From Chaetoceros tenuissimus (taxonomy: Eukaryota > Bacillariophyta > Thalassiosirophyceae > Chaetocerotales > Chaetocerotaceae): a DNA stretch of 64,000 nucleotides. Positions 6,575 to 24,709 of the stretch are shown here, in pieces. The notes below the pieces were generated by a model. That model had not been told where the DNA came from. It saw only the letters and a program-made list of their open reading frames with translations, and did no database searches. The translations under genes and the position numbers were made by a program. Numbering within the stretch: the stretch's first letter is position 1; each line of letters begins with the position of its first letter. The stretch is from contig BLLK01000038.1 of the NCBI GenBank assembly GCA_021927905.1, positions 744,001-808,000 on the forward strand, written 5' to 3'.

Positions 6575-8467
6575 TTATGAAATCGATGTATAATCGTGAA
6601 AGTTTCCAAATGCCTGCACGGTAGATGAAGCAGCACCAAACAATTCGTCTACGCTTTCACCTGTAAGTTCAGCTTTTTGGCGAATAAGAGTAGCGAGCTG
6701 CTGACGATATTCATCGGCTCCAGTTACTACATATTTTTTTCTGACATCTACGAGGTTTCCATCGTTATCGATAATTTCTTGGTCAACTTCTTCCCATCTC
6801 TCGTTCTCTCTAATTTGCTCCTCGCATGATGCAATATTATTCTCAATTTGTCTAAGTAGGCCTGCGAGCATATTAGCATTTGTCTTGACTGTATTGTAAA
6901 TACCACGACATGTTTGACCGAATTTCATTGCAGCTATAGTCTCAGGTCCATGACTAGCTTCTTGTGCACCACATAAAATAACAGATGTTTTCGAATCTCC
7001 ACCAAGACCTGTGCTAAGCATCATTGTCAACTTCGAATCCTTGTAAGGCACATGCTTTCCGTTTCGAAGAGCTTCAACGCATTGCTTCAATGCGAGAAGG
7101 CCGAGATTGATATTAACTGCTTCATTGACTCTCAACTTTTCCTCGTCTTCATTCATAGCTTGATCTCCATCATGATTTGAAGGTTGACTCTTCTTGATTT
7201 GTTCAGATCCTCCAAGATCGACAAGAAATAGTCGACTAGTTGAAGCGATACCAGTGTCCAAGCATTCTTGACTCAGTGTCACAATGAAGAGAGTGTGTGC
7301 TCGAGATGACCGAGTATTCATGGCTGTCGCAGCTTTACGCTTCTGTTTCTCCCCTTTGTCGAGTAACGTCAATGTTTCCTTGAGCGAAGAAACAGATTTT
7401 TCTGAAGAACCATCCAAGACATATCTTTGTGCAGCAACGCGACTCTGACCACAGGACTTTCCTTTCTGTAAAAGATCACTGATTTCGTCTCCGTAAATCT
7501 CAATGTATGACACCGAGACTTGGATGTCAAATTTTAAGCTCAGATTTTTCCTTCTATATTCAATCGCACCAAAGACTTCTTTGATAGCTCTTGGGACGAT
7601 TCCAAAGGATTCTGGGAATGCACCACTATTGTCAGTGATTATATCATTATAACTTTCTTCGTGAACATTTGGACCGAACATTGTATGTGTTTTCCCTGAG
7701 CCCGTTTGCCCATAAACTATCGCTGTAGCATTGAAACCATTGATAAATTCAGTTATTAGCGGCATTGTTTGTTCTTCATAAAGTTTCTCCTGAGATGAAA
7801 ATTCATTGAACACTTTATCAAATTCGAAACGCCTCAATCCAAGTGTTTTATCAGCAATCACTACTGCGTTTTGAAGAGCGTCGATTAAGTGTACCCCACC
7901 AGAGATTGAAGGTCCATGCTTGTCTATCTGAGATGCAGCATTGGGATCTTGATTTTCGTCCTCTCCACTAAACCATCCACCTTGCTCCATCAAAATTTTG
8001 AATGCCTGCTTCTGTGATTTGATATTTTTATTTGTTCGAATCAGAGCCAGTCTCTGATGGAGAGGAAGAGTAATCTTCTTCTCATATCTATTTTCAGTCC
8101 CAAGTTCCAATCCCTTTGGCTTGAACCTTGCACTAACATTTAATTGAAATGTGTCATTGTGACGTGATGGTGCATCCTGAGGAACATCTCTCTGCTCATC
8201 TGTCCATAAATCTTTCTTTTTATAGTTTGCCAAAAACAACTGTCTCCAATTTATATTCTTCGAATACAAGGGATAATATACACCATACTCGATATGCAAG
8301 CGATCATTTCTCCACTTAAAAGATAGATCTGAAGTTAATATTTTACTGTGAATTTTACTGACGGCTATAAAGCTTACTCTAGTCTCCTCGGGCAGAAAAT
8401 TGAGGATTGAAAACAATAATTGCTTTGGAACGTTGAGAATAAGGAGTGAGATCAATGAGGAATTCAT
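6575..8467 (-). CDS. Kinesin motor protein with F-box-like N-terminus
   Basis: 630 aa, single exon. The first about 90 residues resemble an F-box: a Leu-rich start (NVPKQLLFSILNFLPEETR) followed by a W-containing segment. The kinesin motor follows. The P-loop GQTGSGKTHTMFG is near residue 255, switch I NTRSSRAH near 385 (family NxxSSRSH) and switch II DLGGSE near 417 (family DLAGSE). The microtubule-binding segment VPYKDSKLTMMLSTGLGG follows. Motor identity is certain. The small switch changes (S to A, A to G) keep the Mg/ATP-contacting residues, so activity is plausible. After the motor only about 100 residues remain, with a short coiled-coil-like stretch, so the protein lacks a long stalk. 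The family walks on microtubules using ATP. The N-terminal motor placement and DSKLT region resemble several unconventional kinesins; the subfamily is unassigned. Confidence 0.9.
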   Translation of the reverse strand: MNSSLISLLILNVPKQLLFSILNFLPEETRVSFIAVSKIHSKILTSDLSFKWRNDRLHIEYGVYYPLYSKNINWRQLFLANYKKKDLWTDEQRDVPQDAPSRHNDTFQLNVSARFKPKGLELGTENRYEKKITLPLHQRLALIRTNKNIKSQKQAFKILMEQGGWFSGEDENQDPNAASQIDKHGPSISGGVHLIDALQNAVVIADKTLGLRRFEFDKVFNEFSSQEKLYEEQTMPLITEFINGFNATAIVYGQTGSGKTHTMFGPNVHEESYNDIITDNSGAFPESFGIVPRAIKEVFGAIEYRRKNLSLKFDIQVSVSYIEIYGDEISDLLQKGKSCGQSRVAAQRYVLDGSSEKSVSSLKETLTLLDKGEKQKRKAATAMNTRSSRAHTLFIVTLSQECLDTGIASTSRLFLVDLGGSEQIKKSQPSNHDGDQAMNEDEEKLRVNEAVNINLGLLALKQCVEALRNGKHVPYKDSKLTMMLSTGLGGDSKTSVILCGAQEASHGPETIAAMKFGQTCRGIYNTVKTNANMLAGLLRQIENNIASCEEQIRENERWEEVDQEIIDNDGNLVDVRKKYVVTGADEYRQQLATLIRQKAELTGESVDELFGAASSTVQAFGNFHDYTSIS

Positions 8468-9009
8468 TTTGTGTTTGTATAATAATATGCAATCAGAATT
8501 ACCTCGTTGTACAATACTTCCTTATGTTTACATCCACTAGCTAACATTGTCATGTTGACTATTGGAATACCAGTAATGGAGAGATGTTTCTTTTAGAGAG
8601 CAATGTATACTTGGACTGGTAACTAATTTAAGTAGAGTAGTGAGATAGTTAATGAAAGTCAAAGTACTCGTAGGATGTGTTTCGATGTTTACAACAATGA
8701 CGCATACCCATACATAGAAGTACGTACGTAAATATCTTCGAAGAAGTTCCTTCCAAAAACACGACTGGAGATGATAATTTTCATTTCGAAATTCTACACT
8801 TTTGCAAGTTGACACCAAACTCTAAACGGTAAATTTAGCAAGGAAATGTGCTATTTTGGATGGCAATGACCCGTCTTTTTATTTGCAAATAAAGCGTAAA
8901 AAGCTCTTCTACTTTCTAGGTACCTTTGTTGTGATTGATACGATTGTTCACATCACACTATCAATCTCTTTCATCATATATCTATATGGAGCAATTCATA
9001 TTGCAAAAA
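8468..9009. promoter_or_regulatory. Divergent promoter region, kinesin and DUF1800-DUF1501 copy 1
   Basis: About 540 bp between divergent start codons. A TGACGC element, resembling the diatom CO2/cAMP-responsive element core, lies at 8698-8703. From 8940 the sequence is similar to 16195 onward, upstream of the second DUF1800-DUF1501 gene (shared ACGATTGTTCACA start), so the proximal promoter was duplicated with the gene. No coding feature was recognised. Confidence 0.45.
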
Positions 9010-12000
9010 ATGAAATCATTCTTCTGTCTACTTCTGGCTTTGCCATTGGCATGGGGTCAGGTCACATATAATTGTGGCAGCAGTACTTCAAATCCAGTGG
9101 ACATTCAAGGTACGATCTAGTGCCATGTACATAAGTCAACTTGCGTCTATGTGGATACATTATTTATAGCTTTGCTACTCTATTCTTGAAATTTTGCTTT
9201 TCTAACACTGCCTGTATCTTCTACTTACACTTCAACAGCTCCGACAGGTTCGGCAGCTTTTACAACGAGGATTAGCAAATCAAGTCAACTATGTGTCCTT
9301 GTCCGAGTAACTGCAATGGCAGGATCTGGAGCAAATGTCAATAATGTCTCAAGATATGCAGATCTTTCGGATTACAATGTTGTACCTGTGGCTCGCTCTT
9401 ACTCCAATAACAACTGGGAAAGGGTTGCAGGCCCATATTCTCAGAGTCTTTCTGTTTCTTGTCCTGGATCAAATTGTGATTTGAATGTGCCAAGTATCAG
9501 TGGTCTCGATAATGGTAAATTCTATCTCATGGCATTTTCTCACAGTTTGACCACTCGTCAGAGGAATGCTCGTTTCTTAGAACAAGTCACTTTTGGTGCT
9601 ACCAAATCAAAGTTAAATGGTTTTTCTGGAAGTTATGCAAACTACATCAAAAATCAAATGAATATTAGTCCCACTCTACACAGAGCATACTTTCGTGAGC
9701 GTGTGGAAGGGACAGGTTTGGAAGCAAACGATGAAAATCGTCTTGATATTGGACCATCGAGTAGAATCACTGGGCCATGTGAGAGTGGTTCCAAATGGAC
9801 CCGATTTGCTTTTACAAGTGAGGATTGGGGTGGGAGTTTTAGCGCATCAATTAGCAATGGACAATGGCTTCTATCAGTAAATGATGTACCTAGGACTATT
9901 GTCGATAATTGGGTTGACATGGATGGTAATGCGCTTGGTAGTGGCGCTTGGACCTTTTGTTGGTGGGGCAGTGACACGTTGGGAGGGGAAGTGGGAATCT
10001 ACGATATCTCTACTGATGAATGCTTTTGGATTGCAAATCCACCGATAAATTTGCCTTTCACAGACAGTCGAGTGAAAAAGATAAATTTGTCTGCGTTGAG
10101 TGGACCAACTACACCAATTTGGGATCAAAGTGCATGGTTAAAGTTTGGTGAAGTTTATACAACTAATTCTGGTATTTCAGGATGCAATGGATTCACTCAA
10201 GGTGACTACTTGAATGTTATTGGCACACGAAATAACGTTCAGTACCGCTTTGCTGGATATGTTGAGTTGAGTGAAAATACACTTGATAATCCAAATCCGA
10301 ACGGCTTGGGCTTTTTTCAAGATTATTGGATGGAAGAAGATGGTGTTGATGCCTGTGCAAACCCTGTAATGGATGAGTGGAACAAGGATACATGCATCTA
10401 TACTACAGCTTCGAATGCATGTAGTCTAAGCTATTCTTGGGGTGAAAAGAAAAATACAAATGATGCTGTGGTTGTTTGTGGTTCAAATGGAGAGGTGGCG
10501 AACAAAAATGAAGGAAAGCATACATTTCAATATGTTTATGGTACCAAAAGACGCTCTAATGGAGGAATACAAAAGAAGAGTGTTTGGTCCATGATCGCGT
10601 TGGAAATGGATGGGGGTGGATCTGATCAGCTGAGGCAACGCGTAGCACATGCCTTGTCTCAAATCTTAGTCGTGACCGAAAACCAAGTTGCTGACCCTGA
10701 GCTGTCGGAGGTATTTTTGAATTATTATGATATCTTTGTCAGGCATGCCTTTGGAAACTATTTTGATATTTTGAAGGAAGTTGCCTTCTCACCCATCATG
10801 GGAGAGATGTTGAGTTATGTCAATTCCGTTTCTGCGCCATATTCAGAAAAACTGGATGGGTTTAGAGCATACCCAGATGAGAACTTTGCAAGAGAGATAA
10901 TGCAGTTGTTTACCATCGGCATCTTTAAACTATCAATGGATGGCACTCCTATTTTGGAGAATGGTGATACTGTTGCGACCTACGACAATACTCACATTCG
11001 TAAGTAGCTCATTGTATTTATTTACTGTAAGCCTCAAGTGGAAAAGAAAAAAATTAAATATCTTTCTCCTCGTCATTGATAGAAAATTTTGCCAGAGCTT
11101 GGACTGGCTTTCAGCCTCAGCCAAATCGTGCGAACTGGGAGAATTGGGGTAATTCGATTAATAGAATGGATCCTATGCGTATCGTTGGACCAAAGAGAGA
11201 TCCATTCCCCAAAATTGACCTTGATGGAAACTACATTGGTGATATAATCCCTCTATGTGTAGATCTCCCAAAGAAACAGTTTCTGAAAATAGGGGCAAAG
11301 TATAGACTCTTGGGTTCTTTAGTTACTCCACGTCTCCATCATCAAACTTCGTGGTGGATAGAAGATGGCTTAGATATCAAGGGAATTCAGTTGTCAACGA
11401 GTTCGAATTTGTTCTCAAATTTATGTAACGGCTCCGCAAACAATTGCAACTATAGTCCTGAAATCATTCTTGACAAAAATTTACAATGTGTTGGAGAAGA
11501 GTGTGATGTTGACGAAATGAGAATTGTTCAAGTCCAATCAAATCCACCAGTCTACTACGAGTATATCAGACCCAAATGTGTTGAGCTTGCATTTTATGAA
11601 AATGCAAAGACTGTAACTCATAGAAATGTCCAAGATTCAATGTGTGCGAACCCCTTGCTGCCTGTCGCAATGAGCTCTTGTTGTGCAAATTGGGGAGGTG
11701 CTACTGAGCAATGTAAATTTACAAATGAGAGAACTACGTTTGCTACAGCTTCTTCTAGATGCAATACTGGAATGTGCCAATGGGACTGGATTGATGATGA
11801 TGCCAGTCCATCCGAGTGTGCTCACTGGGGCAATTCCAATGAAGGTGATGACTTACATTACTGGACAGGTGATGAGGAGTGTACAATGCAGGTGAAAGGT
11901 AAGTCTTTTGTTTTTTTACAATATTTTTAAAATGATTCATGTTCTTCTCATTTATTTTTTATCTTCCATCTGTAAACCTTTAGTGAACAGCAATGGTCAT

Positions 12001-15000
12001 GTATCGATCGTGCATAACCCATACATATCCAATAATCGAGTCACTGAAACCAGTGTAAGGAACTCGAATAGCAATTTTTTCCCCGTTTCTTGGGATGGTA
12101 GTTTTCCTACACCTTCAAACAATTCTTGTGGACCATCATGTAATGTTGTAGCTGGCACATGCTTTTGCAGTATCTCTATTCAAGAATCTCAAGTATTCAG
12201 CGGGATTCCAAGTGTAAATGATATTAAGAGTCAATTGTTTGTAGGGGCACCTGATCCGGATAGTTTTGACCCTAAACCTTACTCTCAAGGTGGTTCTAAT
12301 GGAGGCGTTACAGTTTTTCATAAAGACGGAAATGGATTCACCAAAGAATCAATCTTTCGTATAATTGATGGAGGCGAGGAAGTTTACTTTAAGAATGTTC
12401 TCGCGACTGTTCAAGTAGGAGACTATAGTTTCAGAAATCCTCCACAGTTTCTTAACCTTGCAGCACGCGAGCCTCGTGATGCCATATATGAGACCGAGGA
12501 GGTGCTAAAGCATTTCTTTTACCATGACAATGTAGCCCCATTCCTTGCAACAAGGCTAATTCAAAGATTTGGTATCTCTAACCCATCACCTAGATATGTT
12601 GAAGTAGTTGCAAATGCATTCAGAAATGGATCATATAGCAGTGGTGGTGTGAGCTTTGGACAGTCAAAATATGGAGACATGGCAAGTACAATTGCTGCAA
12701 TAATTTTAGACAGAGAGGCAAGAAGTGAAATACTTGATGCTGACCCATCAAGTGGTTCTTTACGAGAAGTAAGTATTTTTATGTTGATTACACATGATGC
12801 TTTGAATCAACATGCTCACTTCTGCCTTGTTGAAAATTAGCCACTATTGAAGGTGATCAATTTTATGAAATCTATGGACTTTGTGCAAAGTAGTGATGGA
12901 CCAGAGCTACGTCTATGGAATATGCAAAATAAGATTGGTCAAGGAGCTCACGAAATTCCGAATGTTTTTTCATTTTTTCGGCCTGAATATGCGACAAGAC
13001 GCCATCAATATGCTTCATTGACAAGTCCGGAGGCGATAGTGATTACAGCACCGAGGATTACTCGCTTGCTGAACGGTCTCTTCTCTTTGGTTGATTATGG
13101 CCTAAGTGAATGTTATGATGGGTTTGGAGAGTACACAATGTGGTGCGATGGCCTTGAGTGGAGTGATGATGTAGTGAACAGAGGTTATTTGAGATATCCA
13201 ACAAGTACTAGTCTCTCAGGATCTGCATTAGTCGATGAATTGTCAACACTGCTCACAGGTGGTAGACTTAATCAAAATGCGAAGGACTACATCACATCTT
13301 CTTTCAATGCTGCAGGAGGCGGAGCCAAAGGAAAAAAAGTTGCCATGAAGCTCATTGCGACCACTCCAGAGTTTCATACAACGCAGGTCGTTCATGCGAA
13401 GACAGCTAACCGTCCAGACTATGAAGCCCCAAGTGGTAGCGGCAGACCCTACAAGGCGGTCGTTTTCTTGATGCTTGATGGAGGTGCAGACTCTTATAGT
13501 AAGTCCCCTGTTCTCATGTGAATATGAAAATGAACCACATATTTATTCTAACCAAATGTTTCCCCAGACATGCTTGTTCCAAACAGTAATAGTTGTAGAG
13601 GTGCTAACCCAAGTATGTATAATCATTATAGTGCTGTTAGAAGCGGCTTGGCTATTCCGAGAGGCAACCTCCTAAACCTCAACGCGGCGTCTTCGAACCA
13701 AATATGTGATACATTTGGGCTACATCCAAACCTAACAGCGCTTCGAGATATGTATCAGGCCAAGGATCTTTTGTTCGCTAGTAATGTAGGAGTTCTTCAG
13801 CGCACCAACACCAACAAAGATAATTGGTGGTTGCGTACTGACAAAACTGAGTTATTTGCACACAATGGTAAGCTTCGATCGTTTCTTCCTCAAATGATAT
13901 CATTTACATCTTCATCTAACACAATTATTTCGTAGTACAAGCTGATGAAGCCCAAGCAATGGATATTTACCACGACCAAGCTGGAACAGGTGTTGGAGGA
14001 AGAATGGTAGATGTCCTGAATAGAAATGGATTTGCAGCAAACACTGTGTCTGCTGGTGGTATTACAAAAAGCCTCACATCTGCAGTCAGTGATACAATTA
14101 CTGTAGATTCCGAAGGTCTGTCAAAGGTAGCATCCAACCCATATACAGAGCTTGCGAACGACTTCACTCAAAGAATAAGCAACTTGAACAAAGCTTTCAA
14201 TATTGGCAGCGGTACATTTGCCGAAACCTGGAGTAGTACTTTGACTAAGGGCATGGGCGAAATTGATGTGTTAGCTACTACACTGCAGGCAACGACCTTG
14301 ACACAGACATTTAACGGAGAGAATGAGCTTTCTCGTCAATTTGAGACAGTTGCAAAGATGATCAAAGCTAAAAGTAGTAGAGGTTCTGACCGCGACGTGT
14401 TCTACGTTGAGCATGGAGGATATGACACTCATTCGGACTTAGCAACATTCTTCAACGTGCTAACAACTGAGTTGAATGAAGGTGTGGATCAATTCAAGAA
14501 AGAAATGGACTATCAAGGGAGATGGAATGATGTCACTATTGTCATGGTTTCAGAATTCTCACGAACTTTGACAGAAAATAGTGGGCAAGGCAGTGACCAC
14601 GCTTGGTAAGTTTTTCCTTTCATCATCCAAACCTAAAATTCAAGAAATTCGCTCTGACAAATCACTTTGCCATGTAAGGGCCGGAAATTATTTTGTTGCT
14701 GGTGGTTCTGTAGAAGGAGAAAGGATCATAGGACAATATCCCGAAATGCTGCAAGGTGGGAACATGGCATTTGAGCCTGGAATCCTCATTGTAAGTAACA
14801 CATCGTTACGAAGATGGATTATTCATCAGATTCCAGTACACTCACATCTTTTCTCATCATATTTTTTTTATAGCCTACAACTTCATGGGAAGCTATCTGG
14901 AATGGTGTAGCCCAGTGGTTCGGAATCACAAGTGATGCTGACCTAAATGAAGTACTACCAAATAGGAATACTTTCTCCAATAATCTATTCACTGAGTCTA

Positions 15001-15344
15001 TTCTTTATGGGGGAGCTTCACCTCCTACTCCAACTCCTCCGACTCCTGATTCATGTGAAGATTCTCCTCTGCGAATGAGGGTCTACATTCCAGCACAAGG
15101 TAGATTTAGAATGAAGGGATGCAATTGGGCAGCAAAACAAACTGCGAGATGCAACCTCGACGGAGTCAGTAGCCATTGTCCAGCGTCTTGTAATGCTAGT
15201 TGTATGGACACTCAGTTGAGATTCAAATTAATCAAACCAGATGGGACAAAGAAGACTAGAAACTGCAATTTTGTATCAAGAAATAGTTCTGAGCGCTGTA
15301 AATGGGAAGGTATTAGTGATACGTGTAGAGAGGTTTGCTCGTAA
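9010..15344 (+). CDS. Secreted DUF1800-DUF1501 fusion protein, copy 1
   Basis: Nine exons by splice sites and phase: 9010-9109, 9239-10999, 11083-11898, 11984-12768, 12841-13498, 13568-13867, 13936-14605, 14679-14790, 14874-15344; 1,890 aa, all frames open. The signal peptide is MKSFFCLLLALPLAWGQ. The DUF1800 region starts at RQRNARFLEQVTFGAT and continues with LRQRVAHALSQILVVTENQ, DENFAREIMQLFTIG and NFARAWTGFQ. It carries a Cys-rich insertion of several hundred residues. The DUF1501 region starts at AVVFLMLDGGADSYN and ends with VEHGGYDTHSD, SEFSRT and GSDHAWAGNYF. A Pro/Thr linker leads to two Cys-rich repeats. Bacteria usually encode DUF1800 and DUF1501 as adjacent separate genes; here they are one chain. 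Biochemical role is unknown; DUF1501 is related to the sulfatase/phosphatase fold. The SEFGRT motif of bacterial proteins reads SEFSRT here. Intron 7 ends in AAG rather than TAG. An extracellular or cell-wall location is inferred. Confidence 0.85.
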
Positions 15345-15483
15345 ATTATGCAAGATAATGAAAATGAACGTGCTTCTGTCACTTTCTGTTTGGAAGAAAG
15401 TCTAATTCTGCATATATGTATAATGTAAAGGTGAAAGTTATCATTGATTTTCGTATCTGTAGCTATTTTTTTCTTGAGTATGT

Positions 15484-15585
15484 AACATCTTTCTTGTTGA
15501 AGTGGAGATATCATTTTAAAAATTATTTGAATGAGGTCGTTCCAAACATTAGTTTTCTTTTCTGGAGTAAATTTTGTTTGTGGTA
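15484..15585 (-). pseudogene. Duplicated 3' fragment of the galactosyltransferase-like gene, copy A
   Basis: About 100 bp matching the last coding bases and 3' end of the minus-strand gene at 22789-24084. The minus-strand frame reads KKTNVWNDLIQ and MISPLQQE, as in that gene's C-terminus (KKTNVWNDLIQVIKMISPLQ). It has no upstream coding sequence and cannot be a working gene. It is a leftover of the tandem duplication that made the two DUF1800-DUF1501 genes. Confidence 0.85.
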
Positions 15586-15608
15586 ACTTGTACATGAATT
15601 ATGTTGTC

Positions 15609-15707
15609 AACATCCTTCTTGTTGAAGTGGAGATATCATTTTGATTATTTGAATGAGGTCGTTCCAAACATTAGTTTTCTTATCTTAAGGTAAATTTTGT
15701 TTGTGGT
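15609..15707 (-). pseudogene. Duplicated 3' fragment of the galactosyltransferase-like gene, copy B
   Basis: A second copy of the same fragment about 125 bp downstream of copy A. It is preceded by TTGTACATGAATTATGTT, which also precedes the intact gene's end near 22775. A and B are more like each other (both read ATTTGAATGAGGTCGTTCC) than like the intact end (ACTTGGATAAGGTCGTTCC). They therefore arose by a later local duplication after the large one. Confidence 0.8.
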
Positions 15708-16194
15708 ACTAAGGTCTTGGGTCTTTACTTGAATTCGAATGTCATTGGATTGTGGGGATCGATCCCCCCACCATTTTTACTTAAAAAAGTCCCTAGCTAA
15801 AAGAGGAATTGGCGGACCGGGCCAGGGACGACCTTTTTTGGCCGCTTTTCGGCGGTGTATGCTTTAACTAATTTAGCTATATATAAACATATTTTCCGAA
15901 AAGAATCCACTAAAAATAGGATACTGAGATCATTTGTCGGACAAATTTTAATCGTGAATCGTGGGTGATGTAGTCTAGATTTGTCCTCATTTGAACTTTG
16001 GTCATGATATGGGAACTGGGAAGAACTCTTATCAGGGAATAGTTCCAATTATGCGCACCTACTAGCTATGACATCGTGCATCTCAAGTCCTTTTCAATTG
16101 CGACCTCACAAAGATGATGCATAGTATCTTCTCACATCAAGAAATACAAAAATATAGAATATATTCTTATACATTTCTCCTGTATCTTTTCTAA
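15708..16194. other. Unrelated spacer between duplicated units, with a GC-rich patch
   Basis: About 490 bp with no counterpart beside the other unit. It includes a palindrome GGGGATCGATCCCC (15754-15767) and a G+C-rich patch (about 15790-15860) containing GTCCCTAG and CCAGGGAC as imperfect inverted arms. An ORF at 15797-16048 on the minus strand has no recognisable domain. It could be an inserted element or the joint left by the duplication. No terminal repeats or target-site duplication could be assigned by eye. Confidence 0.5.
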
Positions 16195-16275
16195 ACGATT
16201 GTTCACACAGTTATCCATCTATTCCATCACATACATAGAGAAATTCATGTTATATGAACAGTTCAATTTCAAGAA

Positions 16276-19200
16276 ATGAAATCATTCTTTTATCTACTTC
16301 TGGCTTTGCCATTGGCATGGGGTCAGGTCACATATAATTGTGGCAGCAGTACTTCAAATCCAGTGGACATTCAAGGTACGATCTAGTGCCATGTTCAAAA
16401 GTCTACTTGCGTCTATGTGGATACATTATTTATAGCTTTGCTATTCTATTCTTGAAATTTTGCTTTTCTAACACTGCCTGTATCTTATACTTGCACTTCA
16501 GCTCCGACAGGTTCGGCAGCTTTTACAACAAGGCTTAGCAAATCAAGTCAACTATGTGTCCTTGTCCGGGTAACAGCAATGGCAGGATCTGGAGCAAACG
16601 TTAATAATCTCTCAAGATTTGCAGATCTTTCGTATTACAATGTTGTACCTGTGGCTCGCTCTTACTCTAATAACAACTGGGAAAGGGTTGCAGGCCCATA
16701 TTCTCAGAGTCTTTCTGTTTCTTGTTCTGGCTCAAATTGTGACTTGAATGTGCCAAGTATCAGTGGTCTCGATAATGGTAAATTCTATCTCATGGCATTT
16801 TCTCACAGTTTGACCACTCGTCAGAGGAATGCTCGTTTCTTAGAACAAGTCACTTTTGGTGCTACCAAATCAAAGTTGAATGGTTTTTCTGGGAGTTATG
16901 CAAACTACATCAAAAATCAAATGAATATTAGTCCCACTCTACACAGAGCATACTTTCGTGAGCGTGTGGAAGGGACAGGTTTGGAAGCAAACGATGAGAA
17001 TCGTCTTGAAATTGGACCATCAACTAGAATTACTGGGCCATGTGAGAGTGGTTCCAAATGGACCCGATTTGCTTTTACAAGTGAGGATTGGGGTGGGAGT
17101 ATTAGCGCGTCAATTAGAAATGGACAATGGCTTCTGTCAGTAAATGATGTACCTAGGACTATTGTCGATAATTGGGTTGACATGAATGGTAATGCGCTTG
17201 GTAGTGGCTCTTGGCACTTTTCCTACCCCAATAGGTTTTGCTCTTGGGGTAGCGATACACTTGGAGGAGAAGTGGGACTTTGGAATAGATTGAAAGGGTG
17301 CGTTTCGATTGCAAATCCACCGATGAATTTGCCTTTCACAGACAGTCGAGTGAAAAAGATAAATTTGTCTGCATTGAGTGGACCTACAACACCAATTTGG
17401 GATCAAACTGCATGGTTAAAGTTTGGTGAAGTTTATACAACTAATTCGGGTACTTCGGGATGTAGTGGATTCACTCAAGGTGACTACTTGAATGTTATTG
17501 GCACACGAAATAACGTTCAGTACCGCTTTGCTGGATATGTTGAGTTGAGTGAAAATACACTTGATAATCCAAATCCGAACGGCTTGGGCTTTTTTCAAGA
17601 TTATTGGATGGAAGAAGATGGTGTTGATGCCTGCGCAAACCCTGTAATGGGTGAATGGAACAAGGATACATGCATCTATACAACAGCTTCGAATGCATGC
17701 AATCTAAGCTATTCTTGGGGTGAAAAGAAAAACACAAATGACGCTGTGGTTGTTTGTGGTTCAAATGGAGAGGTGGCGAACAAAAATGAAGGAAAGCATA
17801 CATTCCAATATGTTTATGGTACCAAAAGACGCTCTAATGGAGGAATACAAAAGAAGAGTGTTTGGTCCATGATCGCGTTGGAAATGGATGGGGGTGGATC
17901 TGATCAGCTGAGGCAACGCGTAGCACATGCCTTGTCTCAAATCTTAGTCGTGACCGAAAACCAAGTTGCTGACCCTGAGCTGTCGGAGGTATTTTTGAAT
18001 TATTATGATATCTTTGTCAGGCATGCCTTTGGAAACTATTTTGATATTTTGAAGGAAGTTGCCTTCTCACCCATCATGGGAGAGATGTTGAGTTATGTCA
18101 ATTCCGTTTCTGCGCCATATTCAGAAAAACTGGATGGGTTTAGAGCATACCCAGATGAGAACTTTGCAAGAGAGATAATGCAGTTGTTTACCATCGGCAT
18201 CTTTAAACTATCAATGGATGGCACTCCTATTTTGGAGAATGGTGATACTGTTGCGACCTACGACAATACTCACATTCGTAAGTAGCTCATTGTATTTATT
18301 TACTGTAAGCCTCAAGTGGAAAAGAAAAAAATTAAATATCTTTCTCCTCGTCATTGATAGAAAATTTTGCCAGAGCTTGGACTGGCTTTCAGCCTCAGCC
18401 AAATCGTGCGAACTGGGAGAATTGGGGTAATTCGATTAATAGAATGGATCCTATGCGTATCGTTGGACCAAAGAGAGATCCATTCCCCAAAATTGACCTC
18501 GATGGAAACTACATTGGTGATATAATCCCTCAATGTGTAGATCTCCCAAAGAAACAGTTTTTGAAAATAGGGGCAAAGTTTAGACTCTTGGGTTCTTTAC
18601 TTACTCCTCGTCTCCATCATCAAACTTCGTGGTGGATAGAAGATGGCTTAGATATCAAGGGAATTCAGTTGTCAACGAGTTCAAATTTGTTCTCAAAGTT
18701 ATGCAACGGCCCCGCCAACAATTGCAACTATAGTCCTGAAATCATTCTTGATGAAAATTTACAATGTGTTGGAGAAGAGTGTGATGTTGACGAAATGAGA
18801 CTTGTTCAAGTCCAATCAAATCCACCAGTCTACTACGAGTATATCAGACCAAAATGCGTTGAGCTTGCATTTTATGAAAATGCAAAGACTGTAACTCATA
18901 GAAATGGCCAAGATTCAATGTGTGCGAACCCCTTGCTGCCTGTCGCAATGAGCTCTTGTTGTGACGGCTCTAGTAATGGAGGTGGTGCTACTGAGCAATG
19001 TAAATTTACAAATGAGAGAACTACGTTTGCTACAGCTTCTTCTAGATGTAATACTGGAATGTGCCAATGGGACTGGATTGATGATGATGCTAGTCCATCC
19101 GAGTGTGCTCACTGGGGAAATTCCAATGAAGGTGATGACTTATATTACTGGACAGGTAATGAGGAGTGTACAATGCAGGTGAAAGGTAAGTCTTTTGTTT

Positions 19201-22200
19201 TTAAGACAAAATTTTTAATGATTCATGTTCTTCTCATTTATTTTTTATCTTCTATCTATAAACCTTTAGTGAACAGCAATGGTCATGTATCGATCGTGCA
19301 TAACCCATACATATCCAATAATCGAGTCACTGAAACCAGTGTGAGGAACTCGAATAGCAACTTTTTCCCCGTTTCTTGGAATGGCAGTTTTCCCACACCT
19401 TCAAACAATTCTTGTGGACCATCATGTAATGTTGTAGCTGGCACATGCTTTTGCAGTATCTCTATTCAAGAATCTCAAGTATTCAGCAGGATTCCAAGTG
19501 TAAATGATATTAAGAGTCAATTGTTTGTAGGGGCACCTGATCCGGATAGTTTTGACCCTAAGCCTTACTCTCCAGGTGGTTCTAATGGAGGCGTGACAGT
19601 TTTTCATAAAGACGGAAATGGATTCACCAAAGAATCAATCTTTCGTATAATTGATGGAGGCGAGGAAGTTTACTTTAAGAATGTTCTCGCGACTGTTCAA
19701 GTAGGAGACTATAGTTTCAGAAATCCTCCACAGTTTCTTAACCTTGCAGCACGCGAGCCTCGTGATGCCATATATGAGACCGAGGAGGTGCTAAAGCATT
19801 TCTTCTACCACGACAATGTAGCCCCATTCCTTGCAACAAGGCTAATTCAAAGATTTGGTATCTCTAACCCATCACCTAGATATGTTGAAGTAGTTGCAAA
19901 TGCATTCAGAAATGGATCATATAGCAGTGGTGGTGTGAGCTTTGGGCAGTCGAAATATGGAGACATGGCAAGTACAATTGCTGCAATAATTTTAGACAGA
20001 GAGGCAAGAAGTGAAATACTTGATGCTGACCCATCAAGTGGTTCTTTAAGAGAAGTAAGTATTTTTATGTTGATTACACATGATGCTTTGAATCAACATG
20101 CTAACTTCTGTCGTGTTGAAAATTAGCCACTATTGAAGGTGATCAATTTTATGAAATCTATGGACTTTGTGCAAAGTAGTGATGGACCAGAGCTACGTCT
20201 ATGGAATATGCAAAACAAGATTGGTCAAGGAGCACACGAAATTCCAAATGTCTTTTCATTTTTCCGACCTGAATATGCGACAAGACGCCATCAATACGCT
20301 TCATTGACAAGTCCGGAGGCGATAGCAATTACAGCACCAAGGATTACTCGATTGCTGAACGGTCTCTTCTCTTTGGTTGACTATGGCCTAAGTGAATGTT
20401 ATGATGGGTTTGGAGAGTACACGATGGAGTGCGATGGCCTAGAGTGGAGTGATGATGTAGTGAACAGAGGTTATTTGAGATATCCAACAAGTACTAGTCT
20501 CTCAGGATCTGCATTAGTCGATGAATTGTCAACACTGCTCACAGGTGGTAGACTTAATCAAAATGCGAAGGACTACATCACATCTTCTTTCAATGCTGCA
20601 GGAGGTGGAACCAAAGGAAAAAAGGTTGCCATGAAGCTCATTGCGACTACTCCAGAGTTTCATACAACGCAAGTTGTTCGTGCGAAGAAAGCTAACCGTC
20701 CAGACTATGAAGCCCCAAGTGGTAGCGGCAGACCCTACAAGGCGGTCGTTTTCTTGATGCTTGATGGAGGTACAGACTCTTATAGTAAGTCCACTTTTCT
20801 CATGTGAATATCAAAATGAACCCATGTTTATTCTAACCAAATGTTTCCCCAGACATGCTTGTTCCAAACAGTAATAGTTGTAGAGGTGCAAATCCTAGTA
20901 TGTACAATCATTACAGTAATGTTCGAAATAGCGTAGCTATTCCTAGAGGCAACCTCCTCAATCTCAACGCGGCGTCTTCGAACCAAATTTGTGATACATT
21001 TGGGCTTCATCCAAACCTAACAGCGCTTCGTGATATGTATCAGGCCAAGGATCTTTTGTTCGCTAGTAATGTAGGAGTTCTTCAGCGCACCAACACCAAC
21101 AAAGATAATTGGTGGTTACAAACCGACAAAACTGAGTTATTTGCACACAATGGTAAGCTTCGATCGTTTCTTCCTCAAATGATATCATTTGCATCTTCGT
21201 CTAACACTCTTGTCTTCGTAGTTCAAGTTGATGTAACTCAGGCAATGGATATTTACCACGACCAAGCTGGAACAGGTGTTGGAGGAAGAATGGTAGATGT
21301 CCTGAATAGAAATGGATTTGCAGCAAACACTGTGTCTGCTGGTGGTGTTACAAAAAGCCTAACATCTGCAGTCAGTGATACAATTACTGTTGATTCCGGA
21401 GGTACGGTGGATTCCGAAGGTCAGTCAAAGGTAGCATCCAACCCATATACGGACCTTGCGAACGACTTCACTCAAAGAATAAGCAACTTGAACAAAGCTT
21501 TCAATATTGGCAGCGGTACATTTGCCGAAACCTGGAGTGACTCCTTGACTAAAGGGGTCCTAAATGATATTTTAGCGACCATAATGCAGTCAACGACTTT
21601 AACACAGACATTTAACAGACGGAATGAGCTTTCTCGTCAATTTGAGACAGTTGCAAAGATGATCAAAGCTAAAAGTAGTAGAGGTTCTGATCGCGATGTG
21701 TTTTTTGTGAAGCATGAAGGGTACGACACTCATGACAAAGAGGCATACCTTTTCGACATGCTAACAAGGGAGTTGAATGAAGGTGTGGATCAATTCAAGA
21801 AAGAAATGGACTATCAAGGGAGATGGAATGATATTACTATTGTCATGGTTTCAGAGTTCGGACGAACTTTGACGGCAAATAGTCAACAAGGCACCGACCA
21901 CGCATGGTAAGTTCCCCCGTTTCGTTTATACAAACCTAGGATTCGAAGTTCGCTTCTGACAAATCACTTTGCCATTAGGGCCGGAAATTATTTTGTTGCT
22001 GGTGGTTCCGTAGAAGGAGAAAGGATCATAGGACAATATCCCGAAATGCTGCAAGGTGGGAACATGGCATTTGAGCCTGGAATCCTCATTGTAAGTAACA
22101 CATCGTTACGAAGATGGATTATTCATCAGATTCCAGTACACTCACATCTTTTCTCATCATATTTTTTTAATAGCCTACAACTTCATGGGAAGCTATATGG

Positions 22201-22632
22201 AATGGAGTAGCCCAGTGGTTCGGAATCACAAGTAGTGCTGACCTAAATGAAGTACTACCAAATAGGAATACTTTCTCCAATAATCTATTCACCGAATCTG
22301 TTCTTTATGGAGGAGCTTCACCTCCTACTCCGACTCCTGATTCATGTGAAGATTCTCCTCTGCGAATGAGGGTCTACATTCCAGCACAAGGTAGATTTAG
22401 AATGAAGAGCTGTAATTGGGCAGCAAAACAATCTTCGAGATGCAACCTCGACGGAGTCAGTAGCCATTGTCCAGCGTCTTGTAATGCTAGTTGCATGGAC
22501 TCTCAGTCGAGATTCAAATTAATCAAACCAGATGGGACAAAGAAGACTAGAAACTGCAAGTATATATCACGAGATACTACTCGTTGTAAATGGGAAGGTA
22601 TTAGTGATACATGTAGAGAGGTTTGCTCGTAA
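16276..22632 (+). CDS. Secreted DUF1800-DUF1501 fusion protein, copy 2
   Basis: Nine exons matching copy 1: 16276-16375, 16502-18277, 18361-19185, 19270-20054, 20127-20784, 20853-21152, 21222-21906, 21979-22090, 22174-22632; 1,899 aa, all frames open. The signal peptide is MKSFFYLLLALPLAWGQ. Domain order is as in copy 1: DUF1800 with Cys-rich insertion, DUF1501, a shorter Pro/Thr linker and two Cys-rich repeats. Differences are clustered. Around 17205-17310 the text reads SYPNRFCSWGSDT where copy 1 has CWWGSDT. Near 18960 it has DGSSNGG against ANWG. In exon 7 there is a 15-nt gain that repeats VDS. Copy 2 keeps the bacterial-type SEFGRT and GTDHAW but reads KHEGYDTH where copy 1 has EHGGYDTH. 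Both copies look functional and selected. Coordinated expression is plausible because the proximal promoter is shared. Confidence 0.85.
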
Positions 22633-22788
22633 ATTATGCAAGTTCATGAAAATGAACGTGCTTCTGTCACTTTCTGTTTGGAAGAAAATCTAATTCTGCA
22701 TATATGTATAAATATAAAGTTGAAAGTTATCATTGATTTCGTATTTTTAGCCTAATTATACTTGGGTATATACTGTACATGAATTATG

Positions 22789-24084
22789 TTAGCAAAATCC
22801 TTCTTGTTGAAGTGGAGATATCATTTTAATTACTTGGATAAGGTCGTTCCAAACATTTGTTTTCTTTTCTATAGGTAAATTATGTGCATAACCTCCCACA
22901 TCTTTCTTTTCTATCGGCCATTGTTCATTTATGAGCGTCTTTATTTCATCGTCGCTCATGGCAATGTTATTATAAGAATCCCTACTGTTGGTAACATGAT
23001 TTAATATATTCCAAAGTGCAAGGGTTTCTTTCCACTCGACATAATGGAAACTTGCAGTCATGGGAGAACAACAATTCACACCACTTTGAAGCTCATGATG
23101 AAATACATTATCTTCTCCCAGTATTTCTGCTAAATCCTCGTGTTTGGTCTTATACCATGCATCCATTTCATTTTTCACAACTCTTACAATTCCAAACGCA
23201 TGGAAGACATGTCTCTTGGCTTCATCTCTAGTATCAATTACATCAACACCCATTCCATGTTTCAAACATTCAGCAGTCAACAAGCCCGGATTTCCCTGAA
23301 GCCATTTCCTTGTACTTTCACAATGTTCATCATGTCTCTCCCAAGCGTCTATCAATTCTTTCATTGTTTTTCGGCTGAGGAAATATCCACTAGCACCACT
23401 GTTGAAAGCATATTTTCCTTTCTTTTGATTTTTGGGCCTTAAAGCATGCCCAGCATACAAATGTTCCTCTGGATCAAAATTATGAGACTCCAAAAACGAA
23501 CACAAATGCTGAGGAATGATGAATGTATGATCATTTGCAAAGAATGCAAAATCTGGGTTGTATTGTTGGTATACTTGTGAGATTACATATTTCAATCTCG
23601 CTACTCCATCTTCTTCTGTCGCAATGTGCGGCTCTATTAGCATAAGTTTTGGAAAAGAATTACTGTCTGTATTCTGCAAAGTGTAGTCACTATCTGTTCC
23701 AGGATGTGTGACATAGATAGCATGTGCAAACGGTCCCCATGTTTTAGAAATAGAGTCTAATCTTTTTGATCTTCCTTTTGGATTCACTACACTTGGTAAT
23801 AAGACAGTGACATATTTTGGATTGGCACTTATATGTTGCAATGTATGCTTCGCATTAGTATCAGAAAAAGCCGACATGGCAGAATCTTTGCCTAATATTT
23901 GTTTATGATTTGTCTGTATTCCAATGTTGGTACTGTCTCCATTTTCTAATGCTGTAAATAATACATTGTACAGAAAACCAAACAACAGGAAAAGTGATGA
24001 AATGGCAACATAAAATACGATTTTTCTACTACTGCCTCGTTCACTTTTAGTTTTCTTTGTCATTGCAAAACTATGTTCATTCAT
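22789..24084 (-). CDS. Core-1 beta-1,3-galactosyltransferase-like protein (GT31, C1GALT1 type)
   Basis: 431 aa, single exon. Type II membrane topology: a short basic cytosolic tail, then one helix around residues 22-47 (IVFYVAISSLFLLFGFLYNV), typical of Golgi glycosyltransferases. Family features are the FNSGASGYFLSRKTMKEL block, the late CCSPMTASFHYVEW block (C1GALT1: CCS..AVSFHYV) and the segment HLYAGHALRPKN. In C1GALT1 the metal-binding motif is DDD; the matching site here, near residue 183, reads AFFANDHTF, keeping only the middle Asp. The enzyme may use an altered metal site, or may be a COSMC-like non-catalytic relative; both are inference. Its 3' end was copied twice upstream (15484-15707). 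Divergent from the RSH gene. Confidence 0.8.
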   Translation of the reverse strand: MNEHSFAMTKKTKSERGSSRKIVFYVAISSLFLLFGFLYNVLFTALENGDSTNIGIQTNHKQILGKDSAMSAFSDTNAKHTLQHISANPKYVTVLLPSVVNPKGRSKRLDSISKTWGPFAHAIYVTHPGTDSDYTLQNTDSNSFPKLMLIEPHIATEEDGVARLKYVISQVYQQYNPDFAFFANDHTFIIPQHLCSFLESHNFDPEEHLYAGHALRPKNQKKGKYAFNSGASGYFLSRKTMKELIDAWERHDEHCESTRKWLQGNPGLLTAECLKHGMGVDVIDTRDEAKRHVFHAFGIVRVVKNEMDAWYKTKHEDLAEILGEDNVFHHELQSGVNCCSPMTASFHYVEWKETLALWNILNHVTNSRDSYNNIAMSDDEIKTLINEQWPIEKKDVGGYAHNLPIEKKTNVWNDLIQVIKMISPLQQEGFC

Positions 24085-24709
24085 ATAATGGAGGAAACTT
24101 GTTATGTGGTGGAGAAGTCAACTATGGTACGTAGTACGAGGAGGTAAACTGTCAACCACTACAAAACAGTCAGTTTAAAAGGTGATCAAACGACCAACGG
24201 TTATTTCGCCCTTCAGTAAACAGCTAGAGCATAGCTATATATATATATATATATATATATCCGTTAGTAGTGGTGACAAGCAAGAATTTTAGGCGTTTTA
24301 CAGAAAGTTCTAGACCAATCAGATTTGCTTTCTAACCTTTGTGCGTCTGTAGGAATCATCTGCTCACCTTACTTACTTTATCATGTGTTGGATCTTATCT
24401 TGATGGATACCAAGTAAGTAGGAGTTGTACAGTGTAATTGCATTTTTCTTCAACCTAGAAGAGAAGAACAAAATTGTCGTGAGAAATCAGTTCTTGATTC
24501 GCGATACTTTTAGGCACCGCTTTCCATCAAAGTGTTTTCGACTTGTACAAAATAAGAACGCATTTCGGAAGAACATCATTAGTACTAAGGCTGCAGTACA
24601 CACACATTACTGAAAGACATATTTGCTTCACATATCTTGAAAAGGTAGCAATTATCACATAATTTTTTTATCGAATTTTTCCTCGAATCCAATTCATATA
24701 TAAAACACA
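24085..24709. other. Divergent intergenic region with TA microsatellite
   Basis: About 625 bp between the galactosyltransferase-like and RSH start codons. It contains the dinucleotide repeat described separately and an AT-rich leader just before the RSH ATG. The small ORF at 24425-24613 has no supporting feature. No other structure was recognised. Confidence 0.5.
24236..24260. repeat. (TA)n microsatellite
   Basis: About 12.5 perfect TA units in the promoter region between two divergent genes. Likely length-variable between individuals. Confidence 0.95.

Follow-up and report, generated by a model that had tools for sequence, protein, structure and literature searches.

Gene models from the genome of the diatom Chaetoceros tenuissimus confirmed that two protein families, DUF1800 and DUF1501, are joined there in one predicted gene, in the same order as in the bacterial gene pair. 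The two families are neighbours in bacteria, and we know of no function for either. Two copies of the fused gene lie in the window, the whole 64,000-nucleotide stretch analysed here. With a probability of roughly 0.5, we read them as belonging to a family of large diatom proteins, probably secreted, that arose when a bacterial two-gene unit became a single gene, with DUF1501 as a phospho-ester enzyme and DUF1800 as its partner. Within the open-licence PMC literature (preprints and most subscription papers fall outside it), including the accessible parts of PMC5122149, PMC7563939, PMC3597751 and PMC6653060, we found no description of a diatom DUF1800-DUF1501 fusion.

Gene models of the tandem pair and its family

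The initial annotation had described two nine-exon genes with frame-consistent chains of about 1,890-1,900 aa, and our models agreed with it in coordinates, exon number and frame (Table 1). All 16 introns of the two copies are bounded by GT...AG and measure 68-129 nt, and neither chain contains an internal stop. Inspection and a hydropathy window suggest the signal-like start claimed for both copies, and the claimed Cys-rich end was found in the tail. The proposed succession of DUF1800 and DUF1501 also held, but two large inserted domains had not been set apart in that chain.

Table 1. Predicted features of the two fusion genes, in positions of the window
Feature	Position	Strand	Basis or remark
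Copy 1, nine-exon fusion gene, 1,890 aa	9010..15344	+	predicted gene model
Copy 1 exons 1-5	9010-9109, 9239-10999, 11083-11898, 11984-12768, 12841-13498	+	gene model
Copy 1 exons 6-9	13568-13867, 13936-14605, 14679-14790, 14874-15344	+	gene model
Copy 1 exon 1, hydrophobic, signal-peptide-like N-terminus	9010..9109	+	inspection and hydropathy
Copy 1 DUF1800 block 1, aa 99-189, weak	9433..9705	+	14.9 bits
Copy 1 insert A within DUF1800, about 300 aa	9706..10617	+	profile/insert searches
Copy 1 DUF1800 block 2, aa 494-661, with LRQRVA and DENFARE, split by intron 2	10618..11204	+	profile match
Copy 1 insert B within DUF1800, about 396 aa, Cys-rich, split by intron 3	11205..12477	+	profile/insert searches
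Copy 1 DUF1800 block 3, aa 1058-1336, split by intron 4	12478..13386	+	profile match
Copy 1 exon 5, DUF1800 end and DUF1501 start (to Asp1371), single open frame	12841..13498	+	
Copy 1 DUF1501, aa 1356-1770, with D1371, H1472, D1637, H1639, E1680, R1683, D1694, H1695	13444..14981	+	
Copy 1 C-terminal tail, Cys-rich, without Pfam match	14982..15341	+	
Copy 2, nine-exon fusion gene, 1,899 aa	16276..22632	+	predicted gene model
Copy 2 exons 1-5	16276-16375, 16502-18277, 18361-19185, 19270-20054, 20127-20784	+	gene model
Copy 2 exons 6-9	20853-21152, 21222-21906, 21979-22090, 22174-22632	+	gene model
Copy 2 DUF1800 block 1, weak	16714..16968	+	14.5 bits
Copy 2 DUF1800 block 2	17896..18494	+	profile match
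Copy 2 DUF1800 block 3	19764..20672	+	profile match
Copy 2 exon 5, domain junction, single open frame	20127..20784	+	
Copy 2 DUF1501, ligand-like residues as in copy 1	20730..22281	+	profile match, alignment
Copy 2 Cys-rich tail	22282..22629	+	
Tandem unit 1, piecewise homologous to about 16266-22885	9000..15700	.	5' similarity ends ~10 nt before ATG

Significant matches to both families were recovered, with Pfam on exon frames and with bacterial profiles on the spliced proteins. Pfam searches with eight frames of copy 1, each within a single exon, matched DUF1800 at 5.9e-21, 1.3e-9 and 8e-5 (the last below cut-off) and DUF1501 at 9.9e-19, in a frame that also gave a sub-threshold chance match; the other four frames matched no Pfam family. 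The exon 2 frame scored 75.6 bits to DUF1800 (PF08811; cut-off 26.1), and copy 1 scored 68.2 bits to DUF1501 (PF07394; cut-off 27). Using profiles built from five plasmid-borne bacterial pairs, we matched the spliced copies to DUF1800 at 1e-82 and 9e-83 and to DUF1501 at 6e-78 and 2e-78. NCBIfam gave no match for two window frames and one bacterial DUF1501, and for a bacterial DUF1800 protein it gave only two metallopeptidase models, far below cut-off, in a Pfam Ig/PKD-like region. A 442-aa ORF adjoining the pair matched no Pfam family. A scan of the inter-copy stretch for bacterial promoters and terminators was uninformative, the host being a eukaryote.

The genes form a tandem as proposed, but not a lone pair, as they are two of 18 modelled loci in the 41-Mb diatom genome. 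Both bacterial profiles matched all 18 models. Exon-level Pfam searches gave 42 DUF1800 matches across the genome and DUF1501 matches at 16 of the 18 loci, with none listed for C17 and C34a. The domain junction falls within one exon in 16 of 18 models, including both window copies, so the fusion there is independent of splicing; in paralog C33b a single open frame of 1,057 aa matches both DUF1800 (3.4e-15) and DUF1501 (3.3e-15). The core crosses gaps of 3.9-9.2 kb in three models (C33cd, C34a and C34b), and C42 is a broken copy with frameshifts and stops.

The window copies share 94.6% of amino acids and 95.2% of nucleotides over 1,884 aligned codons (66, 48 and 157 differences at codon positions 1, 2 and 3), with dN 0.029, dS 0.128 and dN/dS about 0.23, and their introns diverge by 7.6%. 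The pair could be an assembly artefact in which two haplotypes were set one after the other, or neighbouring genes could have been joined in the models; the probable source genome is indeed heterozygous (1.56% in the part of PMC8613185 consulted). We give this almost no credence, since a coding difference of 4.8%, this dS and 5' flanks between which no similarity was found argue against it, as does the single-exon junction.

All 18 models have a DUF1800 domain parted by inserts into two or three blocks, whereas most sampled bacterial DUF1800 domains are uninterrupted; more than 120 extra residues also occur in ten bacterial or viral-contig DUF1800 ORFs. One of the two inserts holds 11 invariant cysteines. 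Insert alignments comprised 11 members for A (window copies included) and 10 for B (window copies not included). Neither insert matched a PDB chain by sequence at E<=10, and Pfam gave both only single-member, chance-level matches. L046 matched positions 2-34 of insert A at 14.5 bits, which was not taken for homology. The C-terminal tails vary among paralogs. Only the C14a tail exceeded a carbohydrate-binding cut-off in Pfam (CBM_35_2, 1.9e-6, 28.4 bits against 23), with further matches to CBM_6 and CBM_35 below cut-off; the tail of the window copies had no carbohydrate-binding Pfam match.

Bacterial gene pairs and the origin of the fusion

The two families had been said to be usually separate neighbours in bacteria, and we found them adjoining in the same order at 86 of 94 bacterial or viral-contig loci and fused at none, where the bacterial genome loci are the best 80 of 573 confirmed candidates (two motif patterns), not a random sample, and viral contigs supplied 14 in which the DUF1800 family occurs. 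When viral contigs were searched with the diatom junction region, 18 pattern matches came up, but no relative among them. Bacterial pairs (PF08811, PF07394) and diatom genes have both families and their order in common, the profile matches cover most of each domain, and the conserved DUF1501 residues are shared. They differ in that the bacterial unit, taken as two co-oriented genes with DUF1800 first, is unfused, that most bacterial DUF1501 proteins begin with an Arg pair (seen in 49 of 60 bacterial-type rows, against RR in 0 of 18 diatom interdomain linkers), and that insert B is absent from the 3,022 ORFs of the bacterial and viral-contig loci at E<=10.

Trees of each domain with bacterial homologues, as suggested in the initial annotation, placed the 18 diatom rows in one clade. 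For DUF1501, with 60 bacterial-type rows (10 from viral contigs; 60 of 84 near-full rows kept after 60% dereplication), its support was 100/100; for DUF1800, with 30 of 59 bacterial-type rows and a quick method, its SH-aLRT was 100. We also rooted a DUF1501 tree of every second genome row with seven DUF1501 rows, taken from a single genome (L101, Pelagicoccus mobilis) and of the kind with the best Pfam-model scores. In this tree 36 bacterial-type rows form the sister group of the diatom clade, the long-branch row L178 lies outside both, and long branches meet there. L177 and L178 had been grouped with the pairs without a check for an adjoining DUF1800 gene.

Because the bacterial genes adjoin in the same order without being fused, and because the diatom rows form one clade in both trees, the fusion plausibly derives from a bacterial gene pair on the sequences compared. 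The acquisition and fusion of such a pair, as earlier proposed, may stand. The DUF1501 tree does not point to Planctomycetes as its source, the sole Planctomycetota row in the DUF1501 tree (L114) falling among Pseudomonadota rows and not beside the diatom clade. On our best reading, a single ancient event turned a bacterial operon into a fused gene, from which a family of secreted surface enzymes resembling phosphoesterases would descend. The relative timing of transfer, fusion, insertion and intron gain is inferred.

The accessible part of PMC5122149 describes bacterial chitin synthase genes with adjoining DUF1800 and DUF1501 genes, predicted to form one operon. The diatom family might share the link to chitin synthesis suggested for these operons, as it has the same pair of domains, but we see only a slight chance of this. 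The chitin synthase link was not found for the diatom: Chitin_synth_2 (PF03142) had no match in the genome, a weak test because the control matched in 4 of 14 named genomes and one chitin synthase family was tried. Nor do the six annotated plasmid neighbourhoods of the pair, out of seven, list a chitin synthase, and they have no third partner in common. A PA14/GLEYA/F5-8C protein adjoins one bacterial pair. Among marine algae, Emiliania huxleyi also has several DUF1800 genes, 2 of 10 being among upregulated genes in the part of PMC7563939 consulted, a comparison that concerns DUF1800 only.

Putative fold and active site of DUF1501

The protein had been described as of unknown activity, which may now be narrowed to an alkaline-phosphatase/sulfatase-superfamily fold from a bacterial-model match and the ligand-like residues kept in the diatom. 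A model of a bacterial DUF1501 from Pseudoalteromonas, not of a diatom one, gave 86 PDB matches at E<=0.001 in Foldseek; the 50 listed were all sulfatases (including sulfamidase), alkaline phosphatase, LtaS/LtaP or MCR-type enzymes, with TM-scores by query length of 0.20-0.37 among the matches listed. The structure alignments had 45 and 43 rows, from 47 and 48 full-length ORFs. A structure search with DUF1800 gave no PDB match at E<=0.001. By this model DUF1501 would resemble the alkaline phosphatase/sulfatase/LtaS/MCR superfamily remotely, and it differs from it in a very low identity and in having no formylglycine signature.

Residues D1371, H1472, D1637, H1639 and R1683, as well as an acidic residue at 1680, are present in 60 of 60 bacterial-type and 18 of 18 diatom rows; D1694 and H1695 are present in 59 of 60 (one gap) and 18 of 18. 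The Asp/His motifs presumably follow an order similar to that of the alkaline phosphatase superfamily, and we take the His/Asp set to be nearer the two-metal phosphatase branch than the formylglycine sulfatases. Next to the invariant His, 57 of 60 bacterial-type rows have Ser, but 17 of 18 diatom rows have Ala. With Ala in place of this putative nucleophile, hydrolysis by the diatom copies may be altered or absent. The copies might then be catalytically dead structural or adhesive surface proteins, with DUF1501 as a scaffold lacking its nucleophile and the inserts and tails as binding parts, which the Cys-rich inserts and varied tails would also suit. We consider this doubtful, though well worth weighing, as the Ser is only a putative nucleophile and the other ligand-like residues, acidic 1680 included, are kept in all 18 diatom rows, even in the broken C42. 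Placing the nucleophile by a profile comparison of DUF1501 with 20 sulfatases was rejected, as only 41 columns aligned (E 0.013, probability 3.4%).

That sole sulfatase-aligned block holds an SDxG strand, the top fold matches are sulfatases, and 80 exon-level sulfatase matches in the genome make sulfated substrates plausible. On these grounds DUF1501 could hydrolyse sulfate esters in the sulfated polysaccharides of the diatom itself. Type I (formylglycine) sulfatases, however, carry the signature [CS]xPxR and an Asp/Asn metal site. Counted without regard to position, the signature turns up in none of the 18 diatom DUF1501 rows and in 2 of the 60 bacterial-type ones, and the His-rich ligand-like set is unlike that metal site; a sulfatase is therefore rather unlikely.

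Proposed role of the fused protein

If the genes encode secreted phospho-ester enzymes, as we favour, the protein would enter the secretory route through its N-terminal signal, a proposal made together with the absence from the diatom linkers of the Arg pair of most bacterial DUF1501 proteins. DUF1501 would act as a metal-dependent phospho-ester hydrolase or transferase, and DUF1800 would be its obligate partner, needed for folding, for presenting the substrate or for anchoring. Such a dependence would account for the genes staying together in bacteria and for their fusion in the diatom. Through their Cys-rich inserts and varied tails, different paralogs may be directed to different sites in the cell wall or mucilage, where the target would probably be a phosphorylated or otherwise charged extracellular glycan.

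A fuller account, which we advance tentatively, has one fusion in a diatom ancestor, two new inserted domains and an expansion to modular metallo-enzymes at the cell surface, each paralog directed by a tail of its own to a particular wall or mucilage polymer, with DUF1800 as a dedicated partner of DUF1501. If this is true, the fusion would directly show the two domains to work as one enzyme. That such a fusion occurs naturally and is kept in 18 modelled loci speaks well for the two acting together, and the putative alkaline-phosphatase-like fold with its kept ligand-like residues may guide a first assay. For diatom biology, this expanded, apparently secreted gene family offers a circumscribed group of paralogs to knock out and localise.

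Domain fusion in the tandem pair and its paralogs

The initial annotation proposed that this stretch carries a tandem pair of genes (see table), each encoding a DUF1800-DUF1501 fusion. Our analysis bore this out, as profiles of both domains match and exon 5 spans the domain junction in both copies, with the end of DUF1800 running on in frame into the beginning of DUF1501; the Pfam matches to the two domains in copy 1 fall in separate exons. The tandem pair is real, but the picture was incomplete: it belongs to a larger family, fused in each modelled member and with two orphan inserted domains.

A search of the diatom assembly (41,027,912 bases, 68 contigs; the window is C27:744001-808000) returned 42 exon-level Pfam matches to DUF1800 and 16 to DUF1501, and regions around hits (19 + 3 regions) yielded 16 models in addition to the window's two. 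When profiles were derived from five bacterial pairs carried on plasmids, both domains were matched in all 18 models: the DUF1800 match is broken into two or three blocks (6e-81 to 1e-92), and the DUF1501 match covers most of the domain (2e-54 to 2e-79). With this profile DUF1800 block 1 was weak, and none was seen in the paralogs C54a, C17 and C34a. C17 and C34a are without a listed Pfam DUF1501 match, yet the bacterial DUF1501 profile matched them. The domain junction lies within a single exon in 16 of the 18 models (the exceptions are C14b and C18), and a 1,057-aa open frame within C33b matches both domains.

Because C42 is broken (three frameshifts and two stops; probably a pseudogene), some models span gaps (up to 8.7 kb in C33cd, 3.9 kb in C34a and 9.2 kb in C34b, which are insertions or partial tandem copies) and the ends of several are open, 18 is a count of modelled loci and not of proven intact genes. 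C14a has one frameshift in one model and none in another. Two regions hold partly duplicated or interrupted members (see table), with identically scored matches spaced about 9.5 kb apart in C34 and about 8 kb apart in C33.

Elsewhere in this genome, the ordinary sulfatase family (PF00884) has 80 exon-level matches and the chlorophyll-binding family has 63. Of two chlorophyll-binding proteins compared with the PDB, one was closest to fucoxanthin chlorophyll a/c protein 8iwh_6 (6e-98), which belongs to a diatom complex; the other best matched LHCI chain 9vfj_11, more weakly (5e-37), a fucoxanthin protein ranking fourth. The G+C content of the window is 36-42%, and the published C. tenuissimus NIES-3715 genome is reported as 41.0 Mbp with 38.9% G+C in 85 scaffolds (PMC8613185).

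Coordinates of the tandem pair, neighbouring features and paralog regions
Feature	Position	Strand	Description
Kinesin motor protein	6575-8521	-	upstream of copy 1; PF00225, 5.9e-77
Copy 1	9010-15344	+	1,890 aa
112-nt repeat, first	15589-15700		
Copy 2	16276-22632	+	1,899 aa
112-nt repeat, second	22774-22885		
442-aa ORF	22789-24117	-	convergent with copy 2
Family region	C34:46000-66000		partly duplicated or interrupted
Family region	C33:893500-911900		partly duplicated or interrupted

Divergence of the two copies

Nine exons were found in copy 1 by reading the sequence and nine in copy 2 by spliced protein-to-DNA alignment, the latter with no frameshifts or stops. The copies are 94.6% identical over 1,884 codons compared (dN 0.029, dS 0.128), with 66, 48 and 157 differences at the three codon positions, and their introns have diverged by 7.6%. 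Since dS varies from 0.01 to 0.29 among 150-codon windows, gene conversion is possible. When C38b and C18 were used as outgroups, copy 2 had 22 and 24 private changes and copy 1 had 8 and 5; with C34b the numbers were equal (19 and 19).

On the 5' side the similarity between the copies reaches to about 10 nt upstream of the ATG, and none was found beyond this edge. Past the 3' ends of both copies there is a shared repeat of 112 nt, which follows copy 1 in its first occurrence, overlaps the 3' end of the 442-aa ORF in its second, and marks the duplication breakpoint. That ORF had no Pfam match; by eye it has the look of a membrane-anchored glycosyltransferase.

Bacterial counterparts

Two diatom queries against a plasmid collection each retrieved 14 records at 25-34% identity (Vibrio 9, Sphingomonas 2, Agarilytica 1, Photobacterium 1, Acidisarcina 1). 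One Vibrio maritimus plasmid (NZ_CP090440.1) carries two DUF1800/DUF1501 pairs with a GH19 gene between them, and the source of its host strain is the diatom Skeletonema costatum. We then considered 94 loci, namely the best 80 of 573 confirmed genome candidates and 14 viral-contig loci. Within this set a DUF1800 ORF is present in 94/94 and a DUF1501 ORF in 88/94; in 86 the DUF1501 ORF directly follows the DUF1800 ORF on the same strand (spacing -38 to 268 nt), and in none of the 94 do they share one ORF. Five of the six loci without DUF1501 have the match near a contig end; L092 does not.

Flanks were available for 76 of these best 80 genome loci, and flanking ORFs were grouped by single linkage. 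One group occurs at 17/80, directly 3' of DUF1501 at 14 (13 titled as Bacteroidota groups, one Chlorobiota), and the one member tested matches PA14, GLEYA, F5/8 type C and a secretion-tail domain. A separate protein family lies a few kb past the pair at L051, L057, L059, L071 and L099; the member tested, from L051, matches T2SS protein K.

In the DUF1501 tree a single branch (support 100/100) separates the 18 diatom rows from all others, and a quick DUF1800 tree shows the same split. When the DUF1501 tree was rooted, the diatom clade was sister to 36 bacterial-type rows, and because the branches are long, this tree dates no fusion and points to no donor.

Fold, inserted domains and tails

A model of bacterial DUF1501 (a Pseudoalteromonas protein, 45 sequences, mean pLDDT 84.4) gave 86 PDB matches at E<=0.001, and the 50 listed are all sulfatases, E. 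coli alkaline phosphatase, LtaS/LtaP and MCR-type enzymes at TM 0.20-0.37. The bacterial DUF1800 model (mean pLDDT 83.7) had no PDB match at E<=0.001, and profiles of the two bacterial domains found no PDB chain at E<=1. Asp1371, His1472, Asp1637, His1639, Asp/Glu1680, Arg1683, Asp1694 and His1695 (copy 1 numbering) are conserved in 18/18 diatom and 59-60/60 bacterial-type rows, and alignment with 20 sulfatases gave a 41-column block that includes the SDxG strand with position 1680. The formylglycine signature was found in 0/18 diatom DUF1501 domains. The Ser adjoining His1472 in 57/60 bacterial-type rows is Ala in 17/18 diatom rows, which speaks against simple hydrolysis by the diatom domain. 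We hypothesize that the fusion is an enzyme.

Insert B (365-451 aa) separates DUF1800 blocks 2 and 3 in all 18 models; its alignment has 25 invariant columns, of which 11 are Cys. Insert A, about 300 aa long and placed ahead of block 2, has six invariant columns. Searches with either insert brought up no meaningful Pfam family and, at E<=10, no PDB chain. With C38a insert B as query, the 32 exon-level genome matches among the best candidates scored were all at family loci.

The tails C-terminal of DUF1501 vary. That of C14a has a CBM35 match over the Pfam cut-off, while matches below cut-off were to TSP3 (C33cd, ending at the edge of the stretch examined), a plastocyanin-type domain (C18) and PT repeats (C54a and C33b); the C38b tail resembles that of C18 but has no match. 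By eye, C54b has a stretch resembling a membrane helix, and C14b, C34c and C33a end shortly past DUF1501. DUF1800 (2/10) and plastocyanin/azurin (2/9) domains are both reported as enriched among upregulated genes of Emiliania huxleyi (PMC7563939), possibly the same architecture as the cupredoxin-like tails of C18 and C38b. The finding in this diatom is real: a family, fused in each modelled member, with two orphan inserted domains and an enzyme hypothesis that is open to testing.
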